A stretch of 64,000 bases of DNA from Nitzschia sp. pyKryTriq1 (lineage: Eukaryota > Bacillariophyta > Bacillariophyceae > Bacillariales > Bacillariaceae), in contig OY101116.1 in the NCBI GenBank assembly GCA_956465555.1, positions 3,224,001 through 3,288,000 on the forward strand, read 5' to 3'. The notes under the pieces were generated by a model, which saw nothing but the letters and a program-made list of their open reading frames with translations, was not told the origin of the DNA and did not search any database. Below, one piece after another: positions 15,198-36,404 of the stretch; the first letter of the stretch is position 1, and each line of letters begins with the position of its first letter. The position numbers were made by a program, and so were the translations under genes.

Positions 15198-17820
15198 ATG
15201 TCTGAAGGTAAGAAAACAATCATGACTTATGCAACAGCGCTTGCCACGAGGAAGTTTGGTCTGACCTTTCGTGTTTTATTCTTGTTGTGTTTCTACGCCA
15301 ATAATGACCCTGTAGCCAAGCAAGAATCGGCTCAATTGATCACCCGGTTGATTGACTGGAACTCCGATGTCCTCCTAAAACTCCTCAAACAGGTCGTCGC
15401 CAAGCGTGAGGCCTCAGGAAAGGGAGGATGGGACGATGATCCACCCATCGAAGTAAAGGCAAACATAGAGGACGAGCTGGTTGACGTTATCGCTCTCCCT
15501 CCATTTGACAAGGAAGCCCACAAGCATCCCAAGTCGATCGACGTCGCCCCACAAGTGGCCCAGCAATTGAAAGAATTTGTTTCCGCCATTGCACAAGCGT
15601 ACCGTCCGAACCCATTCCACTGCCTTCAACATGCAAGCCACACCACAATGTCTGCTACCAAGCTCATCTCTCGCATTGCTGTATCGGATATCGAGAGTGG
15701 CCAAGTTTCCGAAGGTGACGATGCCATGGATTCTGACCTTCTAGCTGCCTACATGCACAATCAAACCTATGGTATCGTTTCTGATCCTTTGACTCAGTTT
15801 GCTGTCGTTCTGGCAGCTTTGGTCCACGCCGTCGATCACCGCGGCATCTCAAACGAGACTCTTGCAAGTGCAGACCCTGAACTCAAGGCCAAATACGGCA
15901 GCAATGCACTCACTGAGAAGCTTTCCTTCGAAAAAGCATGGGAGAAACTCCAGAGTCCTTATTTTGAAAATCTCCGTCGTTGCATCTACGCCGACGAAAC
16001 TGAAAAGAAGCGATTTCGGCAAGTCTTGGTGAACTCTGTTCTTGCAACCGACCACGATGACCCGGAAGCCCAGGCACTCCGTCAAGAGCGCTGGGACAAG
16101 TCTTTCGGACCCGCTGCCGTTGACGAGGATATAAGCCGCAAGGCGACCAGTGTGATTGAGGCCTTGATGCAAGCGTAAGTTTGCCATTTTATGAGTTTCC
16201 ACATTTCTTGTCGACTCGGGCTAATTATTTGTGCTATCTCCCCATAAATTCAGCGCGGACGAGTTTCACACTATGCAACATTGGCATGTGTACATCAAAT
16301 GGAACGAGCGTGGTTTCGAGGAAGCTACCAAAGCGTACAAGGAAGGACGCACGGTTGCCGACCCGGCAAAGACATGGTACCGCGACGAGTTAACCAAATT
16401 CGACAACTTTGTTATCCCTCTCACCATGCAAATGAAGGATATTGACGCTTTTGTCGTCTCCAGTGACGAGTACCTCAACTACGCCCTTCAGAATCGCCAG
16501 CGTTGGCATTCCAATGGGCGCGAAATTGTTGCGGCTCTTGTTGCCAAGTACACCACGGGAAGTGCGACTGCCAAGGTTGACCTCATCAAGGCCATTTCCA
16601 AGGAAGGAAAGGACGAGGAAGCCTCCACCAAAGATGCAACTTCTACGAAGCATTTGCAGCGTCTCGTTGACTGGAACAATGAGGTTCTTGAACAATTTCT
16701 CAAACAGATTCTGGCTAAGCGTGCGGCCAGTGGGAAAGAATGTCAAGATGAAATTCCCATCATCAGAACTCCGGATGGAAAGACTGTTCTCGACGAGTTC
16801 CCGGACACTATTGATTTCCCCAAGTTTGATCCCAATTCGTCCGTTGACAAGCTGAACCTCTCGGAAGTCCAGTTGCCCTTGGCAGTTGCATCACAATTGA
16901 AAGAATATGTTGGGCACGTATCCTCGCAATTCCATGACAACGCCTTCCACTGTCTCGACCATGCGTCATACGTCTCCATGACGGCGAAGAAGCTTCTGGG
17001 ACGCTTGGTTTTGCAGTCTTCCGATCTTTCTTCAGAAGAAAAGCACAATCAATCGTTTGGGTTGATATCTGATCCTCTTACTCAATTTGCTGTGGTTTTT
17101 GCTGCTCTCATCCGTGACATGGACCACAGTGGAGTGCCCAATGCACAGCTGGCTCAAGAAAATGACGAGCTTGCAAAGAGATTTCACAACCGTTGCATCT
17201 CGGAGCAAAATTCTATCGAGCTTGCATGGAATCAACTAATGCAACCAGAATTCGAGGATTTGCGTGCCGCCATCTGCGCCGATGAAAGCGAGCTCAGGCG
17301 TTTCCGTCAAATTCTTGTGAAGTCGGTACTCGCGACCGACTTCAACGATTCGGAGCTTGTGGAAAGGAGAAAGAAAAATTGGGAAATGGCGTTTGGTGAG
17401 TCGAGCGATGATATGGATCTCAAGGCGACAATTGCGATCGCACTGCTGTTGCAGGCATCCGACTCTTTCCACACCATGCAGCACTGGGCCGTCTACAAGA
17501 AGTGGACCGAGAGGAACTTCTTTGAAGTGTACACTGCATTCCAGAAGGGGCGAGCAAAGCAAGATCCATCTTTGTACTGGTACAAGAGCGAGATGGCACT
17601 TTTGGACGAACACATCATCCCCTTGTGCAAGGACATGCAGAAGCTTGGTATTTTCGGAAACTCTGCTGATGAATACCTTGCTTTCGCCACCACAAACAAA
17701 ATGCAATGGGGAATGAAAGGCACAGAGATCGTGCAAGGCATGGTTGACAAATTTCACGGTAGGGAGGAAAAGAAGTCCAAAGCTGACAGGATCTCTCAAC
17801 GCGTCAGTCTCAGGAACTAA
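15198..17820 (+). CDS. Double cyclic-nucleotide phosphodiesterase-like protein, ligands altered
   Basis: Three exons are inferred: 15198-15207 (only 10 nt, ATG plus two codons and one base), 15316-16174 and 16254-17820, all with GT-AG borders, giving 811 residues. Two copies of a PDEase_I-like domain follow each other (about 5-385 and 400-811). Each has the family landmarks SDPLTQFAVV, ADExExxRFRQ-like and FHTMQHWxVY. In domain 1 the first histidine pair is kept (H105, H109), but the HD metal-binding pair is H174-A175. In domain 2 H522 and H526 are kept and the pair is R577-D578. Active PDEs need both. The protein may therefore be a weak or dead PDE that binds nucleotide or partners; that is inference. 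A paralog lies at 33749-36404 on the other strand. No transmembrane segment or cyclase domain is seen. Confidence 0.85.
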
Positions 17821-18124
17821 GCTGCGGGGTTTGCTGATGGCCCTCGCTCTTTCATGCCATGTCACAAGTAATATGGATGAGTTCACAGCCATAGTATTGG
17901 CTGCCTCGAACATTAATTTAAAAGTAAGCAATGCATTATTATTATTCACAACTACGTATTCGTACCCTCTAGGGTACCCTCTAGAGTAGAGAGTAGGAGC
18001 TTGTGCGGAGCTGTGGTTGTGAGCCAGCCGAAAAAACAACAGCAGGTTGGCAAAAGGACGTTAAGGCTGCCCGACTGTTTCTATTTATTGCCGTAGACTT
18101 TCTTCCAAAAGAATCGGACGAAAT
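17821..18124. other. Tail-to-tail spacer
   Basis: Spacer between the convergent phosphodiesterase-like gene and the first cation transporter. It holds an inverted word GGGTACCCTCTAGAGTAGAG near 17970-17995 and nothing else I can name. Confidence 0.5.
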
Positions 18125-19284
18125 CTAGTAGATGGGTCTCGTCGGATCAGTCGATACTGCCACAATTTGTCTGGCCGTTGAAACTAAGCCGTTCAGTAAG
18201 GGTAACAGACTTACAAGGATGATGACCGATACCACAATGGTTGCCATGGCGTCTGCGAGTTCACCGGAAACCAATTCAGGCCAAATCTGCGAGATAATAG
18301 CTGCCACCAAAACCGCTGTACTTCGCATTGTATCTGCGCAAATGTGCTGTTGCACGAGAGCAAAAAAATACGGATCCATTGGTTGAGTTGGGAAAATAGA
18401 ACCGTCCATCGTCGAAGAATTTGCATTTACTCGGGATACGTACCGTCCATGCTGTTGCAAGGGTCGAGATTGCATTATTGAGAATGGATTGTTGAGATTT
18501 GCAGATTCGCAAACGGCTTGCGCATTTTAAAGCTAAACTACTTACCAGAGCACATGTTGAGATTTACGAGCATCTGCTCCCCCATCCCTAATCCTTCGCC
18601 ATCAGACTCTTCCCCCTCGCCACCGGCATCGTCGACAATCAAGTGCTGGGTCTCGGGATGAATGATTCTGTCACCGCCTCGAACGGAATACCTTGTGGGT
18701 GCTATCTCGCGTCTCACCGTTGTCAACCCAAAAGCTTGGTGCGCCCGAGCAAAGCAAGTCACATTGACAACATCCAGCAACAAGTTTGCCCCCGAAAACC
18801 ACATCATAATATTAACGTCAACGTCTTCTTCTGGCACACTATCAGGCAGCCTCAATGTCATGAGTGCATCTTTGATGGCGTATGCAGTCACAATGACCAA
18901 GGTGGTGACGCTTATCAGCGGCGGGATCAGCTCCAAATACAGTCGCATCAGCTCCCTTTTATATTCTCGCACCGCTGCTGGTAATTTCATCTCTTTCTCG
19001 TTATAGGGACGGTGCTTGATTCGTTCGGCACATAAATTGAAAAGGTAAGTCAATGCATCGACGCTCATGGCTTCGGCATCTTCGAGCATTGCCTGGCTGT
19101 TCGCGATTAGCGCAAAAACAGCTTCCAGCAACAGAAAACCCAAGAACGTCCAAAAGGCGACATTCAATACATATTCATTGGTTATCTCACCCCCTCTTGG
19201 CTCATCTTCTGCCTCTACCAAAACCTTGCTGTGACGATTCTCATTCTGATAGCTCTGCGCTGAGCGGTTCTGGAGAGATGTCAT
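18125..19284 (-). CDS. Cation diffusion facilitator-like transporter, copy A, with 8-nt microexon
   Basis: Three exons are inferred: 18546-19284, a microexon of 8 nt at 18444-18451, and 18125-18346; introns of 94 and 97 nt are GT-AG. The join gives 322 residues and restores the motif C-S-A-W-T-H-I-C-A-D that the paralog encodes without the extra intron. CDF proteins exchange zinc, manganese or related metals for protons across membranes. Helix 2 carries D69 and D76 (SQAMLEDAEAMSVD) and helix 5 carries H250 and D254 (HICAD), in the positions of the usual HxxxD/DxxxD metal sites. Six hydrophobic helices can be drawn. The loop before helix 5 is acidic and Gly-rich instead of His-rich, so the metal is uncertain. 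Copy B lies 1.7 kb away in the same orientation. Confidence 0.8.
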
Positions 19285-19969
19285 TATCACCTGTTATTCC
19301 TTATGACGACTCACTTGGGACGGATTCTCAATGCAAAAGTCCTCTTTCGAAGCAACGGAGGTCAATGCTTTCTTTCTGCAGAATTGGACTTCTATCGAAG
19401 CCAAGGGAGGAAGGATGTCGATGATGAATGTGAAGATGTTAACTGGAATACAAAATAGGAGCAAATACAGATGCAGTTGATGATAACAACTACGATAGCT
19501 CTATAGTAGAGAGACTATTGTGTCGATGGTCTACTTTGTAGTAGAGAGTAGATGCTGCACTAACTCAGTAGAAGTACACCATTGTACGGTACGGTACAGT
19601 ACGTATGTACTGTACAGAATGCATTGTATTTTAATTCGACCGCACCCAAGATTCTCTTCTTCGACCACGTACGCGAGATCAGTCCGGATGACAGCCAGAC
19701 TGACACAAAATATCCATGACTCAAAATCGAAAAGGAGAGTCAGTCGTCGTGCGGACATTTTGCGTAAAGTACTGTACCATACTGTACTGGTACAGTACAA
19801 TACGAGGGTACCGGTACATGTACCGGGGTAGACGCTGTACCGGTACAACTGTAGGGCATGTGCTGTAGGCTGTAGGCTGTAGGATTTCGTTGCCGGTCGA
19901 AGAAGTCGAAGTACCAGGTACTGCATCCTACTCTACAGTACCTGGTACTCGTACGAGTACAGTATTCGT
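19285..19969. repeat. Intergenic region with GTAC/CCGG words
   Basis: No gene is seen upstream of copy A. Words of the GTAC/CCGG type dominate 19500-19640 and 19765-19970 (for example TACCGGTACATGTACCGG). A short tandem GCTGTAG run sits at about 19860-19882. Confidence 0.55.
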
Positions 19970-19981
19970 ACCGGTATCGAC
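19970..19981 (+). repeat. Target-site duplication, left copy
   Basis: ACCGGTATCGAC directly precedes the SINE-like element; the same 12 bases recur at 20538-20549 directly after its tail. Confidence 0.75.
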
Positions 19982-20537
19982 AAGGGTTACGTAGCTCAGG
20001 TGGTGAACTGATTTGGGAGGATCAGTGAGGCCCTGAGTTCGAATCGTCGCGCGATGACAGCTTTCTATGCTGTTTGTCGTTACACTCAAGCCCAATATTT
20101 ACGTTTAAGAAGTCCGATCTGTCCAGCCACCTTGTGTGACCGAATGCTGACGCAGATACACGGACTCAACTCCTGAGGATGCGCAGGCGGCGCAGGCCCC
20201 CCTGTTTCGCAAGCAGGGCAGGCCTTCCATCGCGAATCTCTGCATGGACTCATGTACCCCGCCGTGACACTAGCAGACACCCATTAACGATACTGCGAGC
20301 GTGGCACACTTGCGCCTTCTGTACTTAACATCAAAGGAAAACCCGCCGGGCCTCTGCTGGGATCGATATCCCGAACTAAGCAAGCCCCCCGGCTAGTAGT
20401 GAGATGACAGACGACGCTAAAATGAGCGGTAGACCAACCAGAGCAGCCTAGGTGCCCGCGAGCCTCTGCCGGGATTGGCATCCCATGCTGGGCAAGCTCA
20501 ACGACACCGGAGGTAGTTAACAACAACAACAACAACA
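19982..20537 (+). mobile_element. SINE-like element with tRNA-related head and (AAC)n tail
   Basis: The 5' end resembles a tRNA: A box TAGCTCAGGTGG at 19992-20003 and B box AGTTCGAATCG at 20036-20046, with a paired anticodon-like stem (ACTGAT/ATCAGT) between them. The acceptor and T stems do not pair, so it is not a functional tRNA gene. A body of about 470 bp follows. In it two 38-bp related units (20348-20385 and 20460-20497) each hold a GGGAT-loop-ATCCC hairpin. The 3' end is seven AAC units (20519-20539). The 12-bp duplication ACCGGTATCGAC on both sides is the expected footprint of LINE-machinery insertion. I see no coding capacity. Only one copy is found in the window. The two metal-transporter genes flank it. 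Confidence 0.7.
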
Positions 20538-20549
20538 ACCGGTATCGAC
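20538..20549 (+). repeat. Target-site duplication, right copy
   Basis: A second ACCGGTATCGAC, exactly matching 19970-19981 and overlapping the end of the AAC tail by two bases. Confidence 0.75.
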
Positions 20550-21013
20550 TACTACTGTAGAGTACCAGGTACCTGGTAGTCTGGTAGCTCTACTACTACT
20601 AGTAGAGCAAGTGAAAGTACGATGTTCGTTGGACATAAATGTCGAATGTTGTACAGTACTCAGTACTTCGTACGAGTAGCTACTGTAGGAGGAGGTCTGA
20701 AGGGATGCCACCCCCTCCCAGCAGCTAGTACGGGGAGATGCTGTAACATCCGAATATTCTAACAGTCGAAGAATATAATAAAGTTTTCTCAAAATTTGCA
20801 ATACTATTATTAGTCTACGAGTATAGCATTATTTTGTCGAACGCGATGACTCTGACACTATTCGAGCATGTCTTGGCCTACCGGTAGCGGACGATGATGA
20901 TGATTCGTTCTCTCGCAGGACAAGAAAATAAGTTCCAGACCAAGGGGATTCTGTTAGCTCGAGATGAGAAGAGACGAGGACCTTGCTTTGAAAATCCTAC
21001 TTGATACGGCCAG
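20550..21013. other. Intergenic region downstream of transporter copy B
   Basis: No gene seen. CTACTACTGTAGAG and CTACTACTACTAGTAGAG words lie at about 20550-20605, and GTAC words continue to about 20690. The rest is unremarkable. Confidence 0.5.
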
Positions 21014-22192
21014 CTATGACGTCCCTGTGCTATAATTGCTTGTAGAAAAAGACGAACCACCTCCTCGTCCCAAGGCGCGAATCTCAATTGCTGTCGAGTA
21101 CAAGCCCTGTATAAGCGGTCCCAGGCTCACAATTATGATGATCGAGATGAGAATGGCACCCCAGGAATCAGCATTTGCCGCTGATAGGACCTCGGGGAAA
21201 AGCGCTGCAAATCCAGCTGCCAGCAAAGTGGCGATGCTCCTCAGCGTATCGGCAGCAACATGCTGTCAATCAAGCCATCCCACGTGTAAGACCACTGGAA
21301 ACAATGCTCAAAGACAAAACTCACCAAAGCAACCACTTACCGTGAATGCACTACACATGTTCAAATTTAAATGGTTTGATGACGAAGATTGATCGTCGTC
21401 ATCTTCGTCAAGCCCCAGTAGACTCATGTCCGCGTGTGAAGCAGCCGTGTAGGTTGTCGAATCGTTGCCATCGTCGACTGTCTTTAAGAGGCCAGTCAAC
21501 TCTGTTTCTGTTTCATCTCTATCATGCGATAAGTCCAGAAAAGTTGATGGGATACCGACGACTGGATGTTCCGCCCTGGCAAAGCATGATACATTGACAG
21601 CATCCAGAAGTAGATTCAATCCTGAAAACACCAGCATAATAATGACATCAGGGGGAGTACCAACAGGCTCGTCATCAATCAGCACGTCAATCGCTTGTTT
21701 GAGGGAATATATTGTAACAATCACAAGAGTAGTTACGCTGATCAATGGTGGAATAAGCTCAAGATAGAGCCTCTGCAGTCGTCGTCGCCGGTGAAGTATT
21801 ACGGCATCCATCGATTTTTCTTCCTCGGTAATTTCCCGATGCTTAACCCGCTCGGCGTAATAGTTGAAGAGATAGGTGATCGCGTCGACAGCCATGGCGG
21901 CGCAATCGGCCATCATTGCCTGGCTTCTTGCTGTTAGAGCAAAGACAAACTGTAGCACCGTAAAACAAAAGAAGGACCCAAATGCAACGTTCTGGTAAAG
22001 GCCGGAAGTCAGAATATTTTATTTTTCGAAAGGAACAAATTTTCAAAGGTTGTCTTTTGCTAACAATTGACTCACCAGGACATATTCGTTAGAAGTAACA
22101 CTCGTTGTCTTCAATGGCAGGTTGGTGGTAGCAGTCGGTCCATTCTTTACGGGACCTTCGTCCTCGTAGTTGTTCGACGACTTTGGTGCCAT
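21014..22192 (-). CDS. Cation diffusion facilitator-like transporter, copy B
   Basis: Three exons, 22076-22192, 21341-21991 and 21014-21262, are all joined in phase 0 by GT-AG introns of 84 and 78 nt, giving 338 residues. The sequence parallels copy A throughout: NEYVLNVAF, RSQAMMADCAAMAVDAITYL (D68, D75), LYLELIPPLISVTTLVIVT, and HVAADTLRSIA (H257, D261) after NMCSAFT. The predicted role is the same: a six-helix metal/proton antiporter, with the metal unknown. The first intron of copy B falls after NEYVL, where copy A has none, and copy B lacks the intron that creates the microexon in copy A. The C-terminus is short and Gly/Ser-rich. An Asp-rich loop (DEDDDD) before helix 5 may replace the His-rich loop of zinc transporters. 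The two genes look like an old tandem duplication. Confidence 0.85.
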
Positions 22193-22542
22193 CTTATGTT
22201 TATCGCCCGAATAGGGGTCAGCCGACCGGGTCTGTTCTCAATCGATGATTCTTCGAACGCAATGCTACAAGTACACTGCAGAATGAAATCAGCAAAAGGC
22301 GGGGGCCTCGGAAGAAGAGCGGCATCCATGATGACGATGATGATGATTCTTCATCATTCATGCATGACGATGGTTGAGGAGCGTCGACAAGTCGTGGAGT
22401 GAGTGAGCCGAGCGATGATGTGAGCGGTGAGCGCGCTACAGTATCAGGTACCAGTACTTGCATACCGTACGGGGGAGTACGAGTACCGTACAGCGTACAG
22501 TGGGGCGGTGCCTGGTCTACTGGTACAGCATATGTACCGGTA
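22193..22542. other. Upstream region of transporter copy B
   Basis: No gene seen. GTAC/CCGG words cluster at about 22440-22545 and abut the border of the Copia LTR. Confidence 0.5.
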
Positions 22543-22893
22543 TGTTAAAATCCATGAGTTCTAGGCAGTGGCTAGCGGCTCAGGGATTCGGGCTAAAGGA
22601 CTAATTTGACTGTGGGATAACGAAGTGCGCTATCTTAAATTAATGAGCTCTTGCTCTAACTGATGAAATGAACTTTTGTTCATTTCTACTTTTCTTGAAT
22701 CGTTGACATGTATATCGATAGAAGTCCGTGGGCTTCTTATAGTTTCTTGGAGGATCATAGACTGTCTCAGAGGGTCTTAGAATGAATCTCTGGGTCGTGA
22801 TCGAAACGTGCGTCGTGCGTGATCGTGCGTAATTGCGAACGCTGGTCGCGTCCGTCCGTCGTTCCGTGGACGTTCGATGTAGATATTCGAACA
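22543..22893 (-). repeat. Copia 3' LTR
   Basis: A 351-bp segment bounded on the minus strand by TGTTCGAA at its start and TTTTAACA at its end, giving TGTT/AACA inverted termini. It is preceded by a purine-rich tract (GCGAGAGGGAG) just after the pol stop, as expected for a polypurine tract. Confidence 0.7.
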
Positions 22894-23830
22894 CTCCCTC
22901 TCGCGAGTAGGTAGTGAGTCGATTACCATCCGTTCATGCTCTTTCGGTGACGCTTGAAATCCGGCTCGTTCAGCGGTTTGGTCAGTATGTCTGCCGGTTG
23001 GTCGTAGGTACCAATAGGATGGATTGAGATCCAACCCTTCGTGACGTAGCTTCTAAAGTGGAAGAGTTTGTTGTTGAGGAATTTGGTTCGGGGGCGGAAC
23101 TTGTGGTATCGTGCGATCTCGATAGCCCCGGAATTATCCTCGAACACCTTGCAGTGCACTTCGGTGCGCGAAGTGTTTATCTCGAAACCTCGCTTCTTCA
23201 TTTCCCTTAATAAGCTAATAATTGGGATGGCTTCTCGGAGGGCATATGATAAGCCGGTGATTTCGCTTTCTGTCGAAGATAGGGCGATTTCTTGTTGCAG
23301 TGTTGACTTCCATGCGATGGGAATTCCCGCGTAGCAAATGAAATAACCGTGTCGTGATCGCGCGGTGGAACGATCTTTACCTGCAAGTTCCGGATCGCAG
23401 TTTCCTGCGAAATCTGCATCGACGTAGACCTCTAGCGATTTCGTTGCGTCGGGTTTGAGAATTGTGCCCTCATCTTTCGTTGCTTTTAAGTAACGGCCAA
23501 TCCATTTAACGGCTTTTGCGTGCTCCATTTTTGGCTCTTGGGCGAATCGCGCACATTGATGGACTGCGTATGCGATCTCGTTTCTCGAACCTGCGACGAG
23601 ATAATGCAGTTTCCCGATGACTGATCGGTAGTTGAAATGGTTGTCGAAAGGTCTCGAATCGGGGTGTCGCGATAGCAGCTTGCTTGATGCCATGGGGGTT
23701 TCCTTCGTTGCAACATTGTCGTCGTTGAGCCTGAGGTCGTCCAGTACTTGTTGGACTATGATCGAGTTCTTGTCGGTAGTTCCACTGTTCGTGCGGGTTC
23801 GCCATCCTCGTTGCTTGGATGTGCCCGTGT
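22543..23830 (-). mobile_element. Ty1/copia-type retroelement remnant, fossil
   Basis: Read on the minus strand, this holds the 3' part of a Copia pol (end of the reverse transcriptase, from about 23800, then RNase H ending at 22923) followed by a single LTR. Recognisable pieces are FNYRSVIGKLHYL, YVDADFAG, ALSSTESEI and DQPADILTKPLNEP, typical of diatom Copia elements. Gag, protease, integrase and most of reverse transcriptase are missing, and no second LTR is seen at the upstream end, so the element is a truncated fossil. The upstream limit is approximate. Age cannot be judged from one LTR, but the pol frame that remains is still open, so it is not very old. Confidence 0.85.
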
Positions 23831-24385
23831 GGGTTCGCCTGGCGTATTCCCGAGGTCGCTCCGAAGCGTCGGCGGGCGTTCGGTTTGCGAGTCAGGTTCA
23901 CAGTTTCCCGTTATGACGTGCTCCCCCATGAAACAGTCTATCGACGTTGCCGCGCGTGTAAAAATCCAACGAGTCGTCGTCGTCTGGTCGTCGTCAGTCG
24001 TCGTATGCGACTGGTTTGACTAAAACAATCGTAACGTGTAACGTGTGCGTCGCACGCGTGCCGTTATGTGGCGCGAAAAAGCAAATGATATCTATAAGTA
24101 CGTATATAATTCATTAACATATCACAACCAGTCGGTCCCCGAGAACGAAGCGCGCCAAATCGGAAATGCACCGACCGACATAACAATAATACAAACGGCC
24201 AAAATTGGTCACGACACAAGATTCACACAACCTCCATCAAATAATGATATCCTGATACTGTAACAGTACTCGCCGTCTCTAGAGTAGAGATTGCAGGAAA
24301 TCGGACTCAAGAGGCGCACAAAGAACCAACAGTAGTGATCCCTAGCAACAACTCTTGTACTCTACATATATTTCGCTATTTCAGA
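23831..24385. other. Region upstream of the coiled-coil gene
   Basis: No gene recognised. The stretch 23830-24020 is GTC/GTCG-rich and may contain more decayed mobile-element sequence, but I cannot assign it. A TTTCAG just before the ATG at 24386 could be a 5'-UTR splice acceptor. Confidence 0.4.
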
Positions 24386-25810: not shown

Positions 25811-25952
25811 ATCGGCAGTCAAACAGCTCGCCAAGCTTGCCCCTTTGAAATAGCTCTGAACAGTGAAGTTTATTCTAGGCAACGGCCTTCACTGATACAA
25901 CAATATCTTTAGTACAGTACAGCGTTCAAGCTATTTTGTTACCTCTATTAGC

Positions 25953-27656
25953 CTACGCGCCCCTTGCCAATGTCCGACAATCTTCGACTAAATCCCAGGC
26001 AACTTGAGCTTGCCGGGTGCATTCGTCCAGCCGGCCTATCAGAGCGCAAGTTTTAGCGTCGGCTTGAGCGACGCCTCTTGCCTCGCTATTTGGAGGAGCA
26101 GCCTTGGCAAGAGCCAAAAAGATGGGAACATTTTCCTCGACATAGCCGTATCCCGAGATGCATTCGCCAATTTTCGTCTTGACAATATCCTCATTGCCCC
26201 TGCTGGCGACAAGCATATATCGTCCTTTAGTGCGTGAACTCGTGTATTCGAATTCCCGGCGCTTGATTCGTCTCATGATCTCCCGGGCTCTCCAATGAAA
26301 AAAGCTTGGAATGCACACATCCATGTCAAAGGATAAAACTTGGTAATGATGGCCTTCCGGTACCTCCACGACTGTGTCTTTTGGTGGAATTTCTTGCGGA
26401 GAGGTGGTGCTCGTTTTCATTACGTATGTCAGCACTACGGGGTCCTCTTCGGGTTCTAGAGGTGTGATGAGCTTTTTTGCCAGGAGAGTGGCCTGCAAGT
26501 CCCCAAAGTTGAGACTTTCGCATTCCAGAAGTTCCGATAGAACCTTATCGCATAAGATCAAGCTCTTATCCCCCTCGTCTTGTAGTTTTTTGTCCGTAAT
26601 ATATTGCAATAGACACATAATGATTTCATTGAGAGTCAGATGAGAAGGGACATGAATGTCGTTCTCGAGTGGTATGGAAAGATCATCATCGAGGGAAGTC
26701 CCATCCTCTGCAGCCTTGCGCCGCTTGGCGATTCTGGGATGAGTTCCAGCCACATGCTTGGGAAAGAATTTCTCCGCCAGTGCCCCCGAGGGACGATACA
26801 TCGTTTCTCCTTGAGTCGGATGCGCAATGACAGTCGCAACGACACTGTGAAACTTCATAGACTCGGGTGCTTCCACGCCAGCATAGTTGACGCGAAACGC
26901 GTGGGCATCGTTGCTCTGTTTCCTAGTCCAGGAGAAGTTGGTGGGTTTGGACGACCTCAAATATTTGGGATTGATTGCGGCGGGTGCTTGGGGCACTTCT
27001 ACCTTTCGCTTGCGAGACTTTTTCGGTGGAGTCAAGTTAGAAGAGGACTGAGGAGGAGTCTCGGGCTGCCAGATGGTTTGGAAGATGAATTCCACTTTAT
27101 CGAAAGCATGTGTGAACAAGGTGGGTTCTATGGGATCTTCCTCTACGTCTCCCACCGAGCGATATCGGTTCCGATCGGCGCGCGACGAACCTCCGCCTTC
27201 GGCTCCGTCGGTGGCTCCTGGCTCGGGCACAGTGGGTAGAACCGACGATGATTTGATATGGAGGACTTCCTCCTCCCCTTCGTCTCCTCGGGATTTGCGA
27301 ACAAAGGCTCCGTGCTTGTCCACTCGCTGAGCGCTCGCGTGGTCCAGCAGACCCACCAGCAATTTGCCTTCCACCGCCAACGTCCACATGCTCGCATCTT
27401 GCTCATTTTTCTCGTTCTTGTGCGTCACAAAAACTCGCAAATGCGATCGGCGATAGGGAACTTCCTGGTCTACGGCACAGGTGACGCGGCGGCGAAACCG
27501 CTTGACGTGCTCATCGAGTCGTTTTTCCAGCTCATCTATCTCATTGAGTCGCCGATGAAAATGTTGCCAAATTTCAGGAATTCGAGACTGTGGAAGAATC
27601 TCTAGATCGTTTGGAGCCTCGGGTTCCTTATCCTTGTCGCTGGGTGAAGATGACAT
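25953..27656 (-). CDS. BAF60/SMARCD-like SWI/SNF subunit with SWIB domain
   Basis: From the ATG at 27656 the product is 567 residues; an upstream ATG at 27734 would add 26. SMARCD (BAF60, yeast Swp73/Rsc6) proteins bridge transcription factors to SWI/SNF chromatin remodellers. Diagnostic pieces are the N-terminal helical stretch ELEKRLDEHVKRFRRR, then SHLRVFVTHKNE and SMWTLAVEGKLL. At about residues 360-440 is a SWIB domain (LLQYITDKKLQDEGDKSLI, CDKVLSELL). A C-terminal helix-rich region follows. The linker between the two conserved parts is long and holds a basic patch (PPKKSRKRKVEVP) that may be a nuclear localisation signal. There is no intron. It is convergent with the coiled-coil gene. 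Confidence 0.85.
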   Translation of the reverse strand: MSSSPSDKDKEPEAPNDLEILPQSRIPEIWQHFHRRLNEIDELEKRLDEHVKRFRRRVTCAVDQEVPYRRSHLRVFVTHKNEKNEQDASMWTLAVEGKLLVGLLDHASAQRVDKHGAFVRKSRGDEGEEEVLHIKSSSVLPTVPEPGATDGAEGGGSSRADRNRYRSVGDVEEDPIEPTLFTHAFDKVEFIFQTIWQPETPPQSSSNLTPPKKSRKRKVEVPQAPAAINPKYLRSSKPTNFSWTRKQSNDAHAFRVNYAGVEAPESMKFHSVVATVIAHPTQGETMYRPSGALAEKFFPKHVAGTHPRIAKRRKAAEDGTSLDDDLSIPLENDIHVPSHLTLNEIIMCLLQYITDKKLQDEGDKSLILCDKVLSELLECESLNFGDLQATLLAKKLITPLEPEEDPVVLTYVMKTSTTSPQEIPPKDTVVEVPEGHHYQVLSFDMDVCIPSFFHWRAREIMRRIKRREFEYTSSRTKGRYMLVASRGNEDIVKTKIGECISGYGYVEENVPIFLALAKAAPPNSEARGVAQADAKTCALIGRLDECTRQAQVAWDLVEDCRTLARGA

Positions 27657-29092
27657 CCTTGAAGGATCTCCGAATAGCTGCCGATATTGTACGAATGACG
27701 AATGGGAGGGAGAGATGAAGAGACCAAAGCACATGAGGTTGGCGGTTGGCGGTCTGCTGTGCGGTCTGCTGGTCTGCTCTGTCGATGTGATCGCTGGGCG
27801 CTGGGGAACGTGGTGGCTACTGTACTACCGGTAGACCTGCGGGGGAATCGAGGCAGTCTGTCCACCTGACCTCGAAGCTTCAGTCGAACCTGTCCAACAA
27901 GGTCAATCGAGTCGAACTGTTTTAGGTCGAAGAAAAGATCTACCGGTACTGGTACACGTGGCTCCACTACGTTCTGCCACCTACGTTGCTTGTTGAATTG
28001 GGTCCGGTCTATTAATGCGAATCCGGGGTGTGGCAAAAAGGGGGATTTACTGTTGTCAGGATCCCTGCCCTTCCATCCGATTCGCTTGATTCGCGAGGGT
28101 CGGCGGGGGCGGGCAGGTGGGTCAGCATTAAAACTATCTACATAAGCGTCTCTTCTGCACGATAGCAGGGGTCGAACGATATCGACCCGGACGAAACAAA
28201 GAAAGTGCCATCGTCATGCATCTGAGGCGCAGAATCTCCAGGATGGCGGATCTGTTCTCCAGGGGATTCTCCACGGGATTCTCCAGGGGATTCTCCATGG
28301 TCTCCTTAGAGATTCTCCTAGGAGAAAGGTCATACGTTCTTCCTTTACATCCAATTGCCGAATTCACCTGCCGAATTCACCTGCCGAACCCACCTGCCTG
28401 AATTTGCGCAGAAAAATTCTCCAGACAAATTCTCCAGACAAATTCTTCCTAAGAATTTGATGGGGCTTTCTCCATGTAAAGGGACTCGCGTCTTTCCGTT
28501 GTATGATATTATTTGAACAGCAACTCAATCCCAGCCAGCGTCAGACCAATCGACTTCCCAATCGCACCCGATACTTCCTTGTTGCTTGGCACTGGTTCTG
28601 GTCTGTTAATGACCCAAATTACATAGGCAGATTACCAAAAAGGAGTTACTCACCCCATACACTAACCCAAAGAGCGCGCATGGTAATTGGTAATCCAAAA
28701 CCTTCCCCACCCACACCCAAAAACGAGAGTTCCTAGTAGGTAGGAACTAGTGAATGATGATGATCGCGAGAAAAAGGGGGCAGAGCGGAAGAGGGTACAT
28801 ACTGGTACTTTACAGTACCAGTACTCGTACCAGGTACTCGTACAGTAGCTCTTTCAGTACGCATGCAGTCAAATACAGTAGGCCGTACGTTATCCAATAG
28901 TACAGTTTCTAGCAGGCCTACTACAGTACATCGCGCCAAGAGGATTTCATCGGTAGAGCAGCTAGGGTACCCAATGAAGGAGAGAACAGTCCGTCGCTGC
29001 TTCTATGTATCGGTACTATTCTAGAGCTCAGATGCTTTCGAATAAGGTCTTCTCTTTCTCTCTAACTATGCTCGAAAAGTTTCCTATTTAAT
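27657..29092. other. Intergenic region with three short tandem arrays
   Basis: No convincing gene in 1.4 kb. At about 28226-28330 a 12-bp unit (GGATTCTCCAGG) repeats about five times, imperfectly. CACCTGCCGAATT repeats three times at about 28368-28400. AAATTCTCCAGAC repeats about 28414-28446. A reading frame on the minus strand through the first array would encode ENPLENPVENPLEN, but it has no other support. A GTAC word cluster lies at about 28795-28930. Confidence 0.55.
28226..28446. repeat. Short tandem arrays sharing a TTCTCCA core
   Basis: Three adjoining arrays (units of about 12, 13 and 13 bp) follow each other; the first and last share the core TTCTCCA, so they may come from one expanding unit. 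None has the spacer and repeat structure of a CRISPR array. Confidence 0.6.
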
Positions 29093-31339
29093 TCATGTTG
29101 GCTTGGGAATTGTGATTGTGTAGTCGCCGCGATTCTTGGGACCTTGTAACTTGGCCAGGGAAAATTCACCTATGCGTTCGCGGTTCTTTTTCGTCGTGGC
29201 ATCTTCAACGTAGACTTCGCCCCCACAAATCATGAAATCTTTATCTTCGTCGCTCGTCTTCTTGGCCATAGCTTCCAAATGAGGAATACCAAAGGCCTTG
29301 GACGCCATGGGAATATCAGACGAACTCATACCGATTCGATGTACCCGGCCGATCATTTCAATAACGCGTTGTTTTTGGGGTGGTATCACTAACCGAATTC
29401 GGAGCTGAACCTCCCCATTATCACCTTCTAGAAATTTCCAGGTACCACCCGCCGCCTTTTGATTTGTCTCGGGATCTAATATTGGCCCACCCGCCGTAGT
29501 CCCATCGATTCTCAATATCAGGTTCTCGCTGCTGTCGTTGGTTGACGCTTCCACAGCAAACCCTGTCGGACTCGACACAACGTGCCAAATACCCGCAAAA
29601 TGTCGGCTGTTGGGGTAGGGTCCTAGATCTTTCTTCTTTTTCTTGGGGCGATCACTCTCTGGTACCAATGTGCCCTCTTTGTAGGCTTTAAAGAGTGGAT
29701 TTTCGGCAACAGGGGGCATCTCCTTCTTCACCGGCTTCCGCGCTTTCTCGCTTTCCTGGGACTCGATCGCATTTCTTATCCTAGTCTTCATCCAATCTTC
29801 AATAAAATCATCGGGGGAAGCTTGATTTTGTGATGCTACCGACAAATCTGCCAGCTTCGCTTCGTCGTCATCCTCGTTGTCGTCACTCTGATCCTTCGGT
29901 GAAACGGTAGCTTCTACCACACCTTCAATTGCGTCTTCCTCCATGAATCCACTTTCACCCCCGACAGATTTACTATACAGTTGCTCAAGTCGTTCGTAAG
30001 TTTTGGTCACGAGTACATCTCTCTCTTGCTCTTTAGGTTTAGTGGGTTCACTTGACGTTTCCGTTGCCCCTTCCGGGCTCAGTTGCCTTTCCTGTTCTTG
30101 CATCCGTTCATCTTGGTATTTTTGAAATTTTTCTTCTGATCGCATTATCACAGAATTTGCATCGGGCAGGGCAATGGTATCGTAGGGCATGTAGAACATG
30201 GAATAGCTCAAGTCGGAGGATAACGCCGATACACCTTGACTGCGTGGATAGATGCCAATCTCTTTGAGTCTAATGTTTCTTCCAAAGACATCGTCCCACC
30301 ATTGGCACCAAAAGATAGGTGAAATACCATTTCCACCTTCGGATGAATTCAAAAATTCAAAGTCCTCATCACTTATTGTTGTCGATTCATCCTTGAATTT
30401 GCTCAGGTTGTCATCAAAATCCCTCGGTAACTCCATGAACGGTATTCTGGGTCGAAACTCTGGGCTAGACGACGTCATCCGTTCGCCCCCCTCCGAAGAT
30501 GCTCTCTGTGGATCGGGTGGGAAAGCCACCTGCCAGCCTAGGCCTTCGATGGTTGTTTTCAAGTCTTTCACCAAGGTTTGGAGCTTATTAGTGCCGTCGT
30601 CTCCCGCTAAGGCAACTGTATTGAGTACATTATTGTTTGACCCATCAATTTCCAGTGACTGGAAAGTCATGGTCAACGGGCGATACCCATCGACATTCAA
30701 AAGCTCATCATCTAAGTCATCTTCTTCTCCTTCTCCCGGTTGGTACTTCTGGAATATATGCTTTTCTACCAATGTTTGCACTGTTTTCGCCAATTCGTTG
30801 GTCGCTTGCGCGGAAGTAGCGCTGGAGGCTTTGACATATAGTAGAGGTAGTCGCGTCACGGCACCAGGAATACAAGCATCCGTCAGAATGGGGCAATGGT
30901 AGAGAATCGCCCGTTGGACGGATTCCAGTTCCAGCAAAAGTTCATACGATGTGTCCATGGGAATGGCAATCAAATGTGTCGCCGTCGCAATGTCGTCGGA
31001 AGAGAAGGGCGGTGCTGTATCCTTTGGACTGCGACCAGCTGATGCCGCCTCTTGCGAGGACGACGACGACTCCTTCCCTTTTCCTAAAAATTGGGCCACA
31101 TAATCAGCCATGCGACTCTTTTCGGGACCCAGAGGGACGCCGTCTTCATCGCCCTCGTCGTTATTTCCTGTTTTGTCGGCGGAAAGAAGTAGAACTGAAA
31201 TTGGCGTTTCTCGACCATTTCGGCTCTGCTGCGCCCGAACTGGTTTACGTGTCTGTGACTGCGATGACAGAAAACCATCTGTGTATTCGTAAAGTAGTAA
31301 AATCGATAGTATCGATAGAAAAGCTACTGTTGTCGTCAT
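29093..31339 (-). CDS. Putative plastid-targeted protein of unknown function
   Basis: The intronless frame gives 748 residues from the ATG at 31339. The N-terminus has a hydrophobic signal-peptide core (VAFLSILSILLLYEY) followed by DGFLSSQSQTRKPVRAQQ. The F at the likely cleavage point and the basic, Ser/Thr-rich stretch after it fit a diatom plastid bipartite presequence. Residues about 100-400 contain an alpha/beta region with no recognised family. An acidic, disordered linker follows (KDQSDDNEDDDEAKL). The last 160 residues form a compact beta-rich module (FAGIWHVVSSPTGFAVEA, AAGGTWKFLEGDNGEVQLRI). This module is lipocalin-like in texture, but I cannot assign it. Its upstream neighbour, the DUF819 gene, starts divergently 489 bp away and is also predicted plastid-bound. 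Confidence 0.75.
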   Translation of the reverse strand: MTTTVAFLSILSILLLYEYTDGFLSSQSQTRKPVRAQQSRNGRETPISVLLLSADKTGNNDEGDEDGVPLGPEKSRMADYVAQFLGKGKESSSSSQEAASAGRSPKDTAPPFSSDDIATATHLIAIPMDTSYELLLELESVQRAILYHCPILTDACIPGAVTRLPLLYVKASSATSAQATNELAKTVQTLVEKHIFQKYQPGEGEEDDLDDELLNVDGYRPLTMTFQSLEIDGSNNNVLNTVALAGDDGTNKLQTLVKDLKTTIEGLGWQVAFPPDPQRASSEGGERMTSSSPEFRPRIPFMELPRDFDDNLSKFKDESTTISDEDFEFLNSSEGGNGISPIFWCQWWDDVFGRNIRLKEIGIYPRSQGVSALSSDLSYSMFYMPYDTIALPDANSVIMRSEEKFQKYQDERMQEQERQLSPEGATETSSEPTKPKEQERDVLVTKTYERLEQLYSKSVGGESGFMEEDAIEGVVEATVSPKDQSDDNEDDDEAKLADLSVASQNQASPDDFIEDWMKTRIRNAIESQESEKARKPVKKEMPPVAENPLFKAYKEGTLVPESDRPKKKKKDLGPYPNSRHFAGIWHVVSSPTGFAVEASTNDSSENLILRIDGTTAGGPILDPETNQKAAGGTWKFLEGDNGEVQLRIRLVIPPQKQRVIEMIGRVHRIGMSSSDIPMASKAFGIPHLEAMAKKTSDEDKDFMICGGEVYVEDATTKKNRERIGEFSLAKLQGPKNRGDYTITIPKPT

Positions 31340-31828
31340 GTTGAAAGGTTTGATGGAGTTAACGAGTACACCGGCAGAGTATTTCTTATGAAAATACCGG
31401 TACCGGTATGGTGTATGGTGTTTGCGCGACCGTATTATGATGTTTCCAAAAAATCGTTCTGTTGGCGGTTGGCTCTGATGGTGACGAGGAGTGACGACAG
31501 ACGACAGACGAACGCGCTTTCAACGCGCGAAGATCTGGATCTTTCTGACTTCTTCGCGAATTTGATTGTGGTGCAGGTTAGTGCGTGCTTTATTGCCCTG
31601 ATGAGTGCTTATTTTCGAATATGCGTGATCGATGGCGAAAGATTTCAAAAATTGAGCGAAGGCAAAACATTCACAGTGTTCCGCGCCGCTTGCAAGCCAT
31701 TTTCATTGCATTGGTTGAAGCACCTGTGCGAGTATTAATGCTTGGCACATTGCTCTGAACAGTGGATACAGTCAACCAACACACGAACGTTCGAGTAAAG
31801 TGTCGGTCTGAAGAAAAATTGTCTCAAC
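31340..31828. other. Divergent promoter region
   Basis: Lies between two divergently read plastid-protein genes. A reading frame of 116 codons on the plus strand (31388-31738) has no recognisable features, and I do not call it. Short direct repeat GACGACAGACGACAGACGA at about 31493-31511. Confidence 0.5.
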
Positions 31829-33621
31829 ATGAAGAAATTCTACTCCTCCGTCTTCACGAGCTCGATGCTGCTCGCCCATCACTTCTCGACCGTCGACTCG
31901 TTTTCCAGCTTTCGGCCAGCTTACCACGTCCGCCACGACTCGACAATTGCAAGCACAATTGCCAGTACAAGTACAAGTACAAGAACTCGTACTTTCAGTC
32001 GCCACGATGGGGTCCCCTCTGGGCTGCAAAAGTCCACACATAGTTGGAGTCCAACTACTCATAGTACTTCCCGACAAAAGACGTCGCTCAATGGATTCTC
32101 GGATATCGCGGCAGGAATTCAATCTTTGCACGGGAATACCAGCTACGTGCTGACTGTAATTTTGTGGTTGTCCACCTTTGGGGTGTCTTTGGAACGCCGA
32201 ACGGTCATTGGCAAGGCTCTCTCCGCTCCCTTGGCTACGATGGCACTGGCCTTGACGACGGCCAACTTGGGTCTGCTACCTTTTGAATCTCCCACCTGTA
32301 AGATTTTCCAGTTCGGAAGACGATTTTTCACCTGCTTCAATCTCTTCTCATTTGATATCACTGCTTGTTGTTGTTGTTCTTGTTCTTGTTCTTGCTCAAG
32401 ATGCCATGATCAACCGCTTTTTGATCCCTCTCGCTGTTCCGTTGTTACTCTTCGACTCTGATATGAAGCGAGTTATAAATGATACTGGAACCCTACTTGC
32501 CGCCTTTGGAGTTGGCGCCGTTGCAACCGTCGTGGGCACGATTGTCGCTTTCCCCATAGTACCGCTCACTTCGTTGGGTCCGGGTGTGGGTTGGCGAGTT
32601 GCGTGTGCATTGGCGGCACGCCACATTGGGGGTGCTATCAACTTCGTAGCGGTGGCAGAAACACTCAATGTCGGAGGAAGCGCAGTATCGGCCGCAAGTA
32701 AGTACAGTACTGTATTCCTCTCTACGACGAGTAGTAGAATTTATAGCGACGGATTCTCACTACTTCGAATACGACGACGCGACTCCTCATCGTATCTACA
32801 GTTGCCGCGGACAATGTCGTTGTTGCTTTGTATTTTGCGTTTCTTTTCTCAATTTCAAAAGCAGGTGAACCAGCCACCTCAAAGGACCAAAATGAAGAAT
32901 CCAGCAACGATACGAGTCCGGAAGGAACAATTGCGGAAATGGCGGTCGAGCAACAGCAAGGGACGTCATCTATCACATTAGCTACCCTTGGAATATCGAT
33001 ATCGGTCGCCTCTACGCTAGTGTCGGCAGGAATGCTATTCACACGCCTTTTCCTGCCATCAGGGACGTCATCCCTCCCAATGATCTCTGTGTTGACGGTC
33101 GCCGCGGCTACTCTTTTTCCTAAATTCTTTTCTCGAATAAGTGAAACAGGGACTGCTGTAGGCGTGACTTTCATTCAGATGTTCTTCGCAGCATCAGGGG
33201 CGGCTGGATCGATCAGACTTGTTATACAGCAGGCTCCAGCTCTGTTCGCCTTTTCGGCCATTCAGATTGGTATCCACTTTGGTACACTGATGGCAATAGG
33301 GAAGGGACTATTTCGTCTACCTAATCGCGAGCTCTATTTGGCGTCGAACGCGAACGTTGGCGGGTAAGTCATGTCATTATGAAAACTGATGATGTTTGCC
33401 TCTTCGATTACGTGCTGATCTCGTATATTGTTTTTACCTTGCCGCTTTCTTTTCACTTTCCTTGTAGGCCGACCACCGCAGCCGCCATGGCACAAGCCAA
33501 AGAGTGGAAACGGTTGGTGTTACCAGCGCTCCTGATTGGAATCCTGGGATATGCCACGGCGACGGCTATCGCGCTTGCATTAGGTCCAATTCTGCTTCGT
33601 CTACCAGTCATTCAGTGGTGA
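31829..33621 (+). CDS. DUF819-family plastid membrane protein
   Basis: Four exons, 31829-32297, 32401-32697, 32802-33363 and 33468-33621, joined by GT-AG introns of 103-104 nt, give 493 residues with every join in frame. The N-terminal signal-like region with VDSFSSF suggests plastid import. DUF819 proteins are polytopic membrane proteins found in bacteria and plastids; transport is suspected but the substrate is unknown. Family signs are LLPFESP, FLIPLAVPLLLFDSDMKRV, ARHIGGAINFVAVAE, AADNVVVALYFAFLFSISK and the C-terminal GPTTAAAMAQAK, which is completed only across the last intron. Ten or so hydrophobic helices can be drawn. The acceptor of the first intron is preceded by an unusual TTG/TTC repeat tract, and intron 2 contains the genome's GTAC words. 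Confidence 0.9.
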
Positions 33622-33748
33622 GCTAATACAAAAATGGAATTTTGAAAAATAATCGTTTAGCTTTGCTATCATATATATCTTGTATCATACTTCATATCTA
33701 TCAAGTATCCCCAAGCCCCCACATCCTGTGGCAAGACGGTGCAAAATC

Positions 33749-36404
33749 CTACGCACTAGAAGCACTCAAACTCATTCGGCGGTAGGCTCTTCTGGTGCGG
33801 ACCTTCTCGATCTCGTTTCCATGATATCTAGCCATCATCGAAGCCACATGATCTCCTCCCTTTGCAGCCCACTGTTGACGATTCCCAAGAGCAAAACTTA
33901 AGAACTCGTCTCCGGTGGACCCAAAGACGCCTATTTCTGCGATTTCTTTGCACACCTGCACGACATGCTCGTCAAAGAAGAGAAGCTCTGATTTATACCA
34001 AAAGATTGATGGATCTTGCATCAAGCGACCCTTCTTGAATGCTGTGTAGACTTGGGTAAAGAGGCGCTCATTCCACTTTTGGTAGAGATGCCAGTTCTGA
34101 GTAGCATGGAACACATCGGAGGCTTGCACGAGAACTTCGAGCACGATTGTCGCCCGTCGGTTTCGATTTTCAATGGAGTTATCGTGCCGACCGCAGACAA
34201 ATGCCTTCTCCCACCGCTTCTTTCGAAGGAAGGTCAAGTCCTCGTCAGTAAAATCAGTCGCAAGAACGCAATTCACAACAATCTGGCGAAAGCGTTTAAT
34301 CTCAGTTTCGTCTGAGAAGATACAAGCACGGAGATCCTCAAACTGTGGCTGCATGAGGTGGTCCCAAGCGGTGGCAATGGAATGCTGTTCCAAAATACAG
34401 CGGTTGCTATATTTGGCAGCAAGAGGATGCCCTTCCCTCACAAGTTGAGAATTAGGAACACCTTCATGTTCCAGCCCAGAGATCAAGGAAGCGAATACCA
34501 CAGCAAATTGTGCCAATGGATCCGAAGAGATTCCAAACGTCCGGTTGTCCAGATCCGAAGCAGCGTGCGCTGCGTTTTCGTTTGTGAGAATTGTTGAGAT
34601 TCGTGAAAGCATCTTCTTTGTGTTCATACATACTTGACTTCCACGGTCTACACCATGAAATTCATTCTTTCTGAATTTCCCTGAGATGTCTTGAACAAAT
34701 TGGAGAAGTTGTTCATCGACAGCGGAGCCTAGATCAATCGAGTCAGAGTTGAGCTTGTCTGGCGAGACAGACGGGTCAAATGGTGGAAATTGGATCACCT
34801 CGGCAACCTCTTCAATAATACTTTCGGCGTCGGTCTGATCAAGGGATACACCCTTTACGTTCGACATGCCCAAGGCCTCCCGCTTTGCGACCACTTGCTT
34901 CAGTAGCTGCTTCAACATTTCTGCGTTCCACTTGACTAGTCGTTGCATGTTTTTGTATGCTTTGGCAACCTCCTCGTCTTGCGTCACGGTCTCAGTAGGG
35001 TTGACTGGGCTTACGGCGGGTTCGCTAGGAACACCATTGGTCACCGTATTATCAGCGTTGATCTTAGCAAGCAGAGCAGGAACCAACATCTTGCCCTTCG
35101 TCGCAAGGTGTTGTCGGTTCTTCAGTGCAAGGTTGAGATATTCGTCGCTACTCACAACGAATGCGTCACAATCCTTCAGTTGCATAGCCAATGGGATGGC
35201 ATAGTTGTCAAAGAGATCCAATTCTTCCTGATACCAAGTCAATGAAGGATCTTCTTTGGTCCTCCCATTTTTGAAAGCAAGGTACTGCTCTTCAAAGTTC
35301 TTGGAGCACCACTTCTCGTAGACGAACCAGGGCTGCATTGTATGGAAGATGTCCGACGCTTGCATGAGATGTTCCAGGACAATGGTCGCCTTTCGGTTGA
35401 TGTCATCTCGGTTGATGTTGTACGCTCCATGGCTAAAAGTCTTCTCCCAACGAGACATTCTGAGATTCTGCAGTTCGGCTGAATTGTCGGTGGCAAGAAC
35501 AGAGTTGACCACGACCTGGCGAAAACGCTTCAATTCTATGTCATCAGCATAGATACACTTTCGGAGGTCTGCAAAAGCAGGCTCCATGAGTTTCTTCCAC
35601 GCCTTATCGATCGATCGTTGTTCGATGATGCTCCGATTCTTGTAAAGGGCTGCGGTTTCCGGATCTTCCTTGACCAGCTGCGCATTTGAGAGTCCTGAAT
35701 GATCTACGGCGTGAATGAATGCCGAGAGAACAAGGGCAAATTGCGTGAGGGGATCGGACGTAATACCATAAGTGTGATTGTGTAAATGAGAAGCGATTTC
35801 GGTCGCTCCCCCAGCTTCATTGGAGGATTCCGATGAATCATCCTCGTCATCCTCGTCCTCTTCTTGAATGCCATCAAGATCGTTGACCACAATTCTCGAC
35901 AAGAGCTTGCTCAAATGCATTGTGACCGCCGAAGCGCGTTGAAGGCAATTGAAAGGATTGTTGTGGTAGGCATTCGCCACAGCCGCGACAAAGTTGTGAA
36001 GTTGGTTCTTGGCCTCAGGTGGCAGATCAATCATGTCAGGATCTTGAGGTCTTTTGAAGACGAATCCTGGGAGATCAATAAAATCAGCGACTTCGTCGCA
36101 GACGACCTGATCCTCTCCTCTGACCAACACTGGCTCTTCCTCCCATTCTTTCTTTCCCATTGCAACACGTTGCGCAACAACTTGCTTGAGAAGCTTGTGC
36201 AAGATCTCCGTATTCCAATCGACCAAACGCTTGATCTGGACAGGTACCTCGTCAATTCGACCTGAGAAGGAAAAAATAAAAAATGTCATGGTTCATGGTG
36301 GAAATCAACATGCATTATTAAAATATGTTAGACAAAAAGACTTGGAGCATAAGCACCGTGATCACAGCCATTCGTGACGTATATGACTGACCTGAGCCTC
36401 CCAT
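33749..36404 (-). CDS. Double cyclic-nucleotide phosphodiesterase-like protein, strongly degenerate
   Basis: Exon 1 is 36392-36404 (13 nt, MGGS plus one base) and exon 2 is 33749-36261, joined through a 130-nt GT-AG intron; the product is 841 residues. It is a paralog of the gene at 15198-17820, with two PDEase_I-like domains in tandem and the same landmark strings (SDPLTQFALV, RFRQVVVNSVLATD, WYxEELDLFDNYAIPLA). Ligand loss is greater. In domain 1 the first His pair is N109/R113 and the metal pair is H188-A189. In domain 2 the second His is Arg (FHGVDRGS) and the HD pair is Ser-Gly (SGLEHEG). Hydrolysis is therefore very unlikely in domain 2 and doubtful in domain 1. Regulation by nucleotide binding or pairing with an active PDE is possible; that is inference. 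The intron inside the first domain of the paralog is absent here. Confidence 0.85.

Follow-up and report, generated by a model that had tools for sequence, protein, structure and literature searches.

Class I cyclic nucleotide phosphodiesterases (PDEs) carry all ligands of their active site inside one domain. The aspartate of the His-Asp (HD) pair bridges both metals. In the H-x3-H pair, the first histidine donates the proton and does not bind metal. Pseudoenzymes are well documented among kinases and phosphatases, and receptor protein tyrosine phosphatases join an active first domain to a second, pseudophosphatase domain. Here, two neighbouring genes are described from a diatom, Nitzschia sp. 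pyKryTriq1, whose genome comprises 40.65 Mb on 20 contigs. They lie in a window of 64,000 nucleotides, the whole stretch of DNA that was analysed (G000:C2:3224001-3288000). Each encodes a protein with two PDE domains, termed D1 and D2, and altered motif residues in both. Judged by these residues, the two proteins very probably do not catalyse cyclic nucleotide hydrolysis in the normal way. Sequence comparison assigns them to a family of double-domain proteins from Nitzschia-like diatoms.

Metal-site residues of the window domains

The motif residues are given in the order H1, H2, H3-D3, D4, the canonical form being H-x3-H, H-D and a later D. Each of the four window domains is without at least one of these residues and gene 2 D2 is short of three, the later Asp (D4) being present throughout. 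The complete metal site of an active class I PDE (His, His-Asp pair and later Asp) is absent in all four. The initial annotation of this stretch had reported the HD pair as H-A in gene 1 D1, R-D in gene 1 D2, H-A in gene 2 D1 and S-G in gene 2 D2, with extra His losses in gene 2, and these readings were reproduced residue by residue. Its statement that two histidines bind the metals needs correction, given the proton donor role of the first. With a cut-off of 24.8 bits, the PF00233 (PDEase_I) profile scores 154 bits for gene 2 and 75.8 and 47.9 bits for the exons of gene 1. Gene 2 D1 and gene 1 D2, the two domains searched singly, were also confirmed to have the class I PDE fold.

Family members and history of ligand loss

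Relatives were collected by two single-protein searches and one profile search, in each of which about 8,000 candidates were scored and the best 120 listed. The top-ranked group among the matches listed is made up of proteins with two PDE domains and no cyclase domain, and below it come the single-PDE and cyclase-PDE proteins; the closest named PDE relatives of the genome are, among the same matches, diatom proteins. The family set comprises 60 proteins or fragments including the two window genes, with both domains readable in 35. P0002 and P0122 were left out as copies of the window genes, and P0053 and P0055 lie outside the tandem family. The last protein search yielded no further full-length member among the matches listed, only fragments. 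Members with a named source come from Nitzschia inconspicua (P0011, P0035), Nitzschia sp. Nitz4 (P0024, P0037) and a Bacillariaceae metagenome-assembled genome (P0015), and three relatives are MMETSP transcripts (P0008, P0016, P0030). Since N. inconspicua and Nitz4 each carry one gene 1-type and one gene 2-type protein, the two genes are an old pair. The contigs that bear the two N. inconspicua genes are recorded with equal lengths. For Seminavis, Cylindrotheca, Amphora and Epithemia, the matches listed hold only proteins of the other (single-PDE/cyclase-PDE) group, which does not show that the family is missing there.

A tree of 158 domains was built by a quick method after removal of the ligand columns, with the Shimodaira-Hasegawa-like approximate likelihood ratio test (SH-aLRT) as its only support measure. 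Domain rows with fewer than 200 filled columns were excluded from the tree and the counts, among them the genome rows C15:240858, C3:918013, C3:919087, C13:1128317 and C16:471192. The 38 D1 rows form one clade (SH-aLRT 99) and the 57 D2 rows another (100); the two are united with a support of 98 and together adjoin canonical diatom PDE domains (83). An origin of the tandem by internal duplication of a PDE domain is supported by these data.

The HD Asp is absent in all 38 D1 rows (Ala in 25, Glu in 8, Val in 3, Cys and Tyr in one each) and likewise in all seven further D1 fragments (Ala in 6, Glu in 1). Parsimony places a single Asp-to-Ala change at the D1 root, with the Glu, Val, Cys and Tyr states arising later; the eight Glu rows form one D1 clade. 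In D2, all five motif residues are kept in 12 of 57 rows, spread over the gene 1 and gene 2 branches and including P0037 from Nitz4, which is close to gene 1. The D2 motif was lost at least seven times on this tree, both window genes included, and the reconstruction counts 17 changes and 12 states at the D2 HD His. Other residues are largely retained, namely D4 (54/57 D2 and 28/38 D1 rows), the proton donor His (56/57 D2 rows) and the downstream Asn (50/57 D2 rows). Among 34 proteins readable in both domains, none has an intact D1 and five have an intact D2. Because the HD Asp is missing from every D1 and the D2 motif is intact in both branches, the founder most likely joined an altered D1 to a motif-intact D2. 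The initial annotation had proposed a lineage of pseudo-phosphodiesterases with paired domains, preserved as full-length open frames. The 60 family members, the domain tree and the substitution pattern given below speak for such a lineage, although it would not have been wholly dead at its origin. Orthologues with intact ligands, which the annotation had named as counter-evidence, exist for D2 (the 12 rows above) but not for D1.

Selection and constraint

Selection was assessed from the substitutions between gene 1 and gene 2 and from protein comparisons. The two genes share 49.6% protein identity, with a proportion of differing synonymous sites (pS) of 0.841, which is saturated, and a nonsynonymous proportion (pN) of 0.347. 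When gene 2 was allowed to drift neutrally to 84% identity in a simulation with substitutions only, a mean of 7 and a minimum of 2 stop codons accumulated (60 runs), while P0003, at 84% identity to gene 2, is one frame of 827 amino acids (aa). Because only open frames enter protein collections, this comparison is supportive, not decisive. Among the 595 pairs formed by the 35 two-domain proteins, 568 resemble each other more closely in D1 than in D2 (mean 0.594 vs 0.530); the stronger constraint lies on the domain in which the catalytic Asp is never kept. In addition, 13 D1 columns consist to at least 85% of one residue that is rare (<15%) in canonical PDEs. Purifying selection on both domains is supported by these data, and the pattern looks like new constraint, not decay. 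Catalytic residues are lost with fold and frame kept under selection, as is characteristic of a pseudoenzyme.

Purine pocket

Pocket positions were assigned from the motif alignment and follow PDE4D numbering. Of the 63 canonical rows, 61 have a canonical purine pocket, compared with 6 of 38 D1 and 4 of 55 readable D2 rows. His takes the place of Ile336 in 31 of the 56 D2 rows readable there, five of these 31 being motif-intact. In the window, the hydrophobic clamp is altered in three of the four domains (Gly and Lys in gene 1 D1, Asn and Leu in both gene 2 D1 and gene 1 D2) and retained in gene 2 D2; the invariant Gln reads Glu in all four. Gene 2 D2 retains the whole canonical base pocket, and its nearest relatives P0003 and P0004 have a His in the clamp. 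It was rejected as a proven nucleotide sensor because the pockets of P0003 and P0004 are non-canonical. Pocket erosion in most members argues against the family being a general nucleotide sensor.

The second His of D2 shows five reconstructed changes from His, four to Arg and one to Lys, and one Arg-to-His reversal. At the HD His of D2, 4 of 14 changes lead to Arg; against this, the 5 of 5 basic outcomes at the second His give a one-sided Fisher p of 0.011, a value that depends on the tree. The bias is taken as a lead only, to the effect that a basic residue may replace a metal.

The purine-binding Gln is invariant in class I PDEs. It reads Glu in 62 of the 63 canonical rows, which consist of 49 PDE domain rows of this genome and 14 other PDE proteins from the searches. 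According to one study, the same Gln-to-Glu change costs human PDE9 about 50-fold in cGMP and 5-fold in cAMP efficacy (PMC3069055), and diatom PDEs may therefore recognise bases differently.

C-terminal tail

Every one of the 55 non-redundant family proteins whose C-terminus is complete ends in a basic stretch that contains an R-x-S-L motif. Arg at -2 and Leu at +1 of the tail serine are invariant in this set, and Arg at -3 occurs in 33 of the 55. A looser form of the motif, searched within about 60 residues after the domain, is present in 10 of 140 other PDE proteins among the matches listed. The consensus of basophilic AGC-type kinases is R-x-S with a hydrophobic residue at +1. The tail shows both features in conserved form and looks like a basophilic kinase site.

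Proposed explanation and alternatives

With a probability of roughly 0.5, the family is read as a diatom group of tandem class I PDE pseudoenzymes that serve as phospho-regulated, non-catalytic regulators or scaffolds. The data support an internal duplication that joined two PDE domains, with D1 losing its HD aspartate at the root (HD to HA) and D2, at first with all five motif residues, losing them repeatedly, in both window genes among others. D1 would be a non-catalytic partner domain that holds or controls D2 in those relatives in which D2 is intact. The window proteins would act as regulator or scaffold; most probably they would associate with active PDEs or with cyclase-PDE fusions, or compete for the docking sites of these enzymes, and phosphorylation of the invariant C-terminal R-x-S-L serine would be the switch. 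This regulator mechanism is put forward tentatively, at slightly below even odds. A precedent is the laboratory technique in which overexpressed dead PDEs displace the active enzyme (PMC5085705).

Several observations weigh against this reading. The predicted model leaves the packing of D1 and D2 unfixed (predicted template modelling score, pTM, 0.52), and the kinase reading of R-x-S-L is a motif match. The eight D1 rows with Glu at the HD Asp possibly still bind metal. An "intact" D2 is defined by five motif residues only, and since just 3 of 11 readable rows of this kind also retain the canonical base pocket, a live ancestral D2 is something that we infer. Many family rows are metagenome contigs, which limits statements on species range, and protein collections list open frames only, so that broken copies would appear as fragments or escape.

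The alternatives are a nucleotide sensor, a slow enzyme, decay and a composite site, all of which are ranked below the regulator reading. The initial annotation had suggested nucleotide sensors. Such domains would still hold cAMP or cGMP but leave it uncut, and would report their occupancy. PDE4D D201N was crystallised with its substrate cAMP (2PW3; PMC13095499) and PDE10A2 D564A is likewise in a crystal with cAMP (2OUY), so that binding is possible where the pocket remains; the full base pocket of gene 2 D2 and the exclusively basic second-His changes of D2 point the same way. The suggestion is nevertheless weakened, because the pocket is canonical in few D1 and D2 rows as against nearly all canonical rows. 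The clamp is altered in the other three window domains and carries His in P0003 and P0004, and the Arg/Lys count is small, tree-dependent and accompanied by a reversal in the same reconstruction. A sensor is therefore considered unlikely. A variant in which the PDE fold has become a cyclic nucleotide effector, with basic residues in place of metal ligands, a nucleotide or other phosphate ligand held uncut, and the dead-dead pair and its phosphorylated tail as readout, seems more doubtful still.

Between these two in plausibility, and also improbable, are reduced or altered hydrolases that would use one remaining metal for slow hydrolysis or act on another phosphoester. D4, the proton donor His and the downstream Asn are mostly kept in D2, 12 D2 rows have all five motif residues and the D1 clade with Glu might be added, but the metal-bridging HD Asp is missing from every D1 row and none of the window domains is complete, gene 2 D2 least of all. 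The repeated loss of the D2 motif, the varied substitutions at its HD His and the faster divergence of D2 than of D1 would suit genes decaying towards loss. Against this stand 50% identity despite saturated synonymous sites, the long frames of 35 two-domain proteins, the stops that neutral drift predicts and that are not seen, the residues conserved specifically in D1, its higher conservation relative to D2, and the MMETSP transcripts of relatives; decay, which the initial annotation had named as counter-evidence to its reading, is thus very improbable. The annotation had also considered composite active sites with ligands from both domains, as the ligands missing from D1 and D2 differ. A class I PDE site draws all its ligands from within one domain, and with the predicted D1-D2 packing uncertain such a site has no structural support; it is hardly credible.

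Gene structure and genomic setting

The coordinates of both genes are given in Table 1. The start ATG lies at 15198 in gene 1 and at 36404 in gene 2, and the first exon of either gene measures 10 bases. The N-terminus of gene 1 resembles those of P0030 and P0037. Once spliced, gene 2 gives a protein that agrees with P0002 letter for letter, and the P0002 record was probably derived from spliced RNA because its frame spans the gene 2 splice junction.

Table 1 Features of the two tandem PDE genes (positions within the window; domain bounds are approximate)
Feature	Position	Strand	Motif residues	Remarks
Gene 1, double PDE-domain protein, 811 aa	exons 15198-15207, 15316-16174, 16254-17820	+		GT-AG introns
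Gene 1 domain 1 (D1)	15471..16551	+	H,H,H-A,D	split by intron 16175-16253; HD Asp to Ala
Gene 1 domain 2 (D2)	16789..17751	+	H,H,R-D,D	
Gene 1 C-terminal tail	17776..17817	+		end QRVSLRN; R-x-S-L family tail
Gene 2, double PDE-domain protein, 841 aa	exons 36395-36404, 33749-36264	-		equals P0002
Gene 2 D1	35060..36100	-	N,R,H-A,D	
Gene 2 D2	33827..34816	-	H,R,S-G,D	
Gene 2 C-terminal tail	33752..33799	-		end RRMSLSASSA

Ten other large open frames, out of 47 in the list for the window, were scanned with Pfam. Six have a match (Y-family polymerase, EF-hand, SWIB, SNF2 helicase, SKIP and a W2-domain protein) and four have none; cyclic nucleotide signalling is not indicated by any of these ten frames.

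Other phosphodiesterase domains of the genome

The genome contains 58 matches to PF00233. Among 49 scored rows of non-tandem PDE domains, 42 have all five motif residues, four have lost a ligand (C4:1698463, C4:2702296, C6:2550581, C7:2417675) and three are unresolved at the first His pair (C4:1722083, C7:2345373, C17:786490). Ligand loss is not the norm among the PDE domains of this genome. An apparent loss of the second His in many single-domain PDEs was rejected, as the nine rows reading Val are mostly intron read-through: eight read His once spliced and C4:1722083 is unresolved. Across the 30 junctions tried near the His motif, 27 give His at both places after splicing and three are unresolved.

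Outside the tandem family, G000:C4:1698463-1699452 is one open frame with the residues H,R,C-S,V and a retained base pocket, which makes it another candidate pseudo-PDE. At C7:2417675 and C6:2550581, the sole change is from the last metal Asp to Asn. A separate tandem of two PDE domains at G000:C4:1715207-1717497 has all five motif residues in both domains and motifs similar to those of the metagenome protein P0055; it looks like an independent duplication with catalytic residues retained.

Comparison with known systems

Compared with class I PDEs (PF00233; human PDE3, PDE4 and PDE5), the window family has two domains per chain, has lost metal ligands and shows a mostly eroded pocket; the invariant Gln reads Glu, as in diatom relatives. 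The nearest canonical relatives in the tree are the diatom cyclase-PDE fusions (support 83), which share with the family the HTMQHW variant of the last motif. They differ in having one PDE domain with intact ligands and, among the matches listed, usually a cyclase domain (PF00211). One such protein, the guanylate cyclase/phosphodiesterase of Seminavis robusta, is upregulated with sex pheromone (PMC4726125). In the light of this pheromone-responsive enzyme, the tandem family points to a layer of cyclic nucleotide regulation in diatoms that may so far have gone unnoticed.

The engineered dead enzymes PDE4D D201N and PDE10A2 D564A have lost a metal-site Asp in a change of the same kind as that in D1, D564 of PDE10A2 being presumably the HD Asp. 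These mutants and the dominant negatives are laboratory products, whereas the D1 change is natural, fixed and old. The family is moreover a graded natural series: D1 was altered from the start, and the D2 motif is complete in certain lineages and changed in the rest. In such a series it can be asked directly how a dead PDE domain affects a live partner, and what is left once neither domain is live. No description of a naturally occurring class I PDE pseudoenzyme was found in the open-licence literature searched. A similar architecture is that of receptor protein tyrosine phosphatases, in which tandem domains of a catalytic fold also include a non-catalytic one; their fold is unrelated, the order of the domains is reversed, and in the PDE family motif loss has recurred in the second domain as well. 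Class I PDE fold, pseudoenzyme and tandem domains are each of a known kind, and their combination and history are new as far as the literature was searched.

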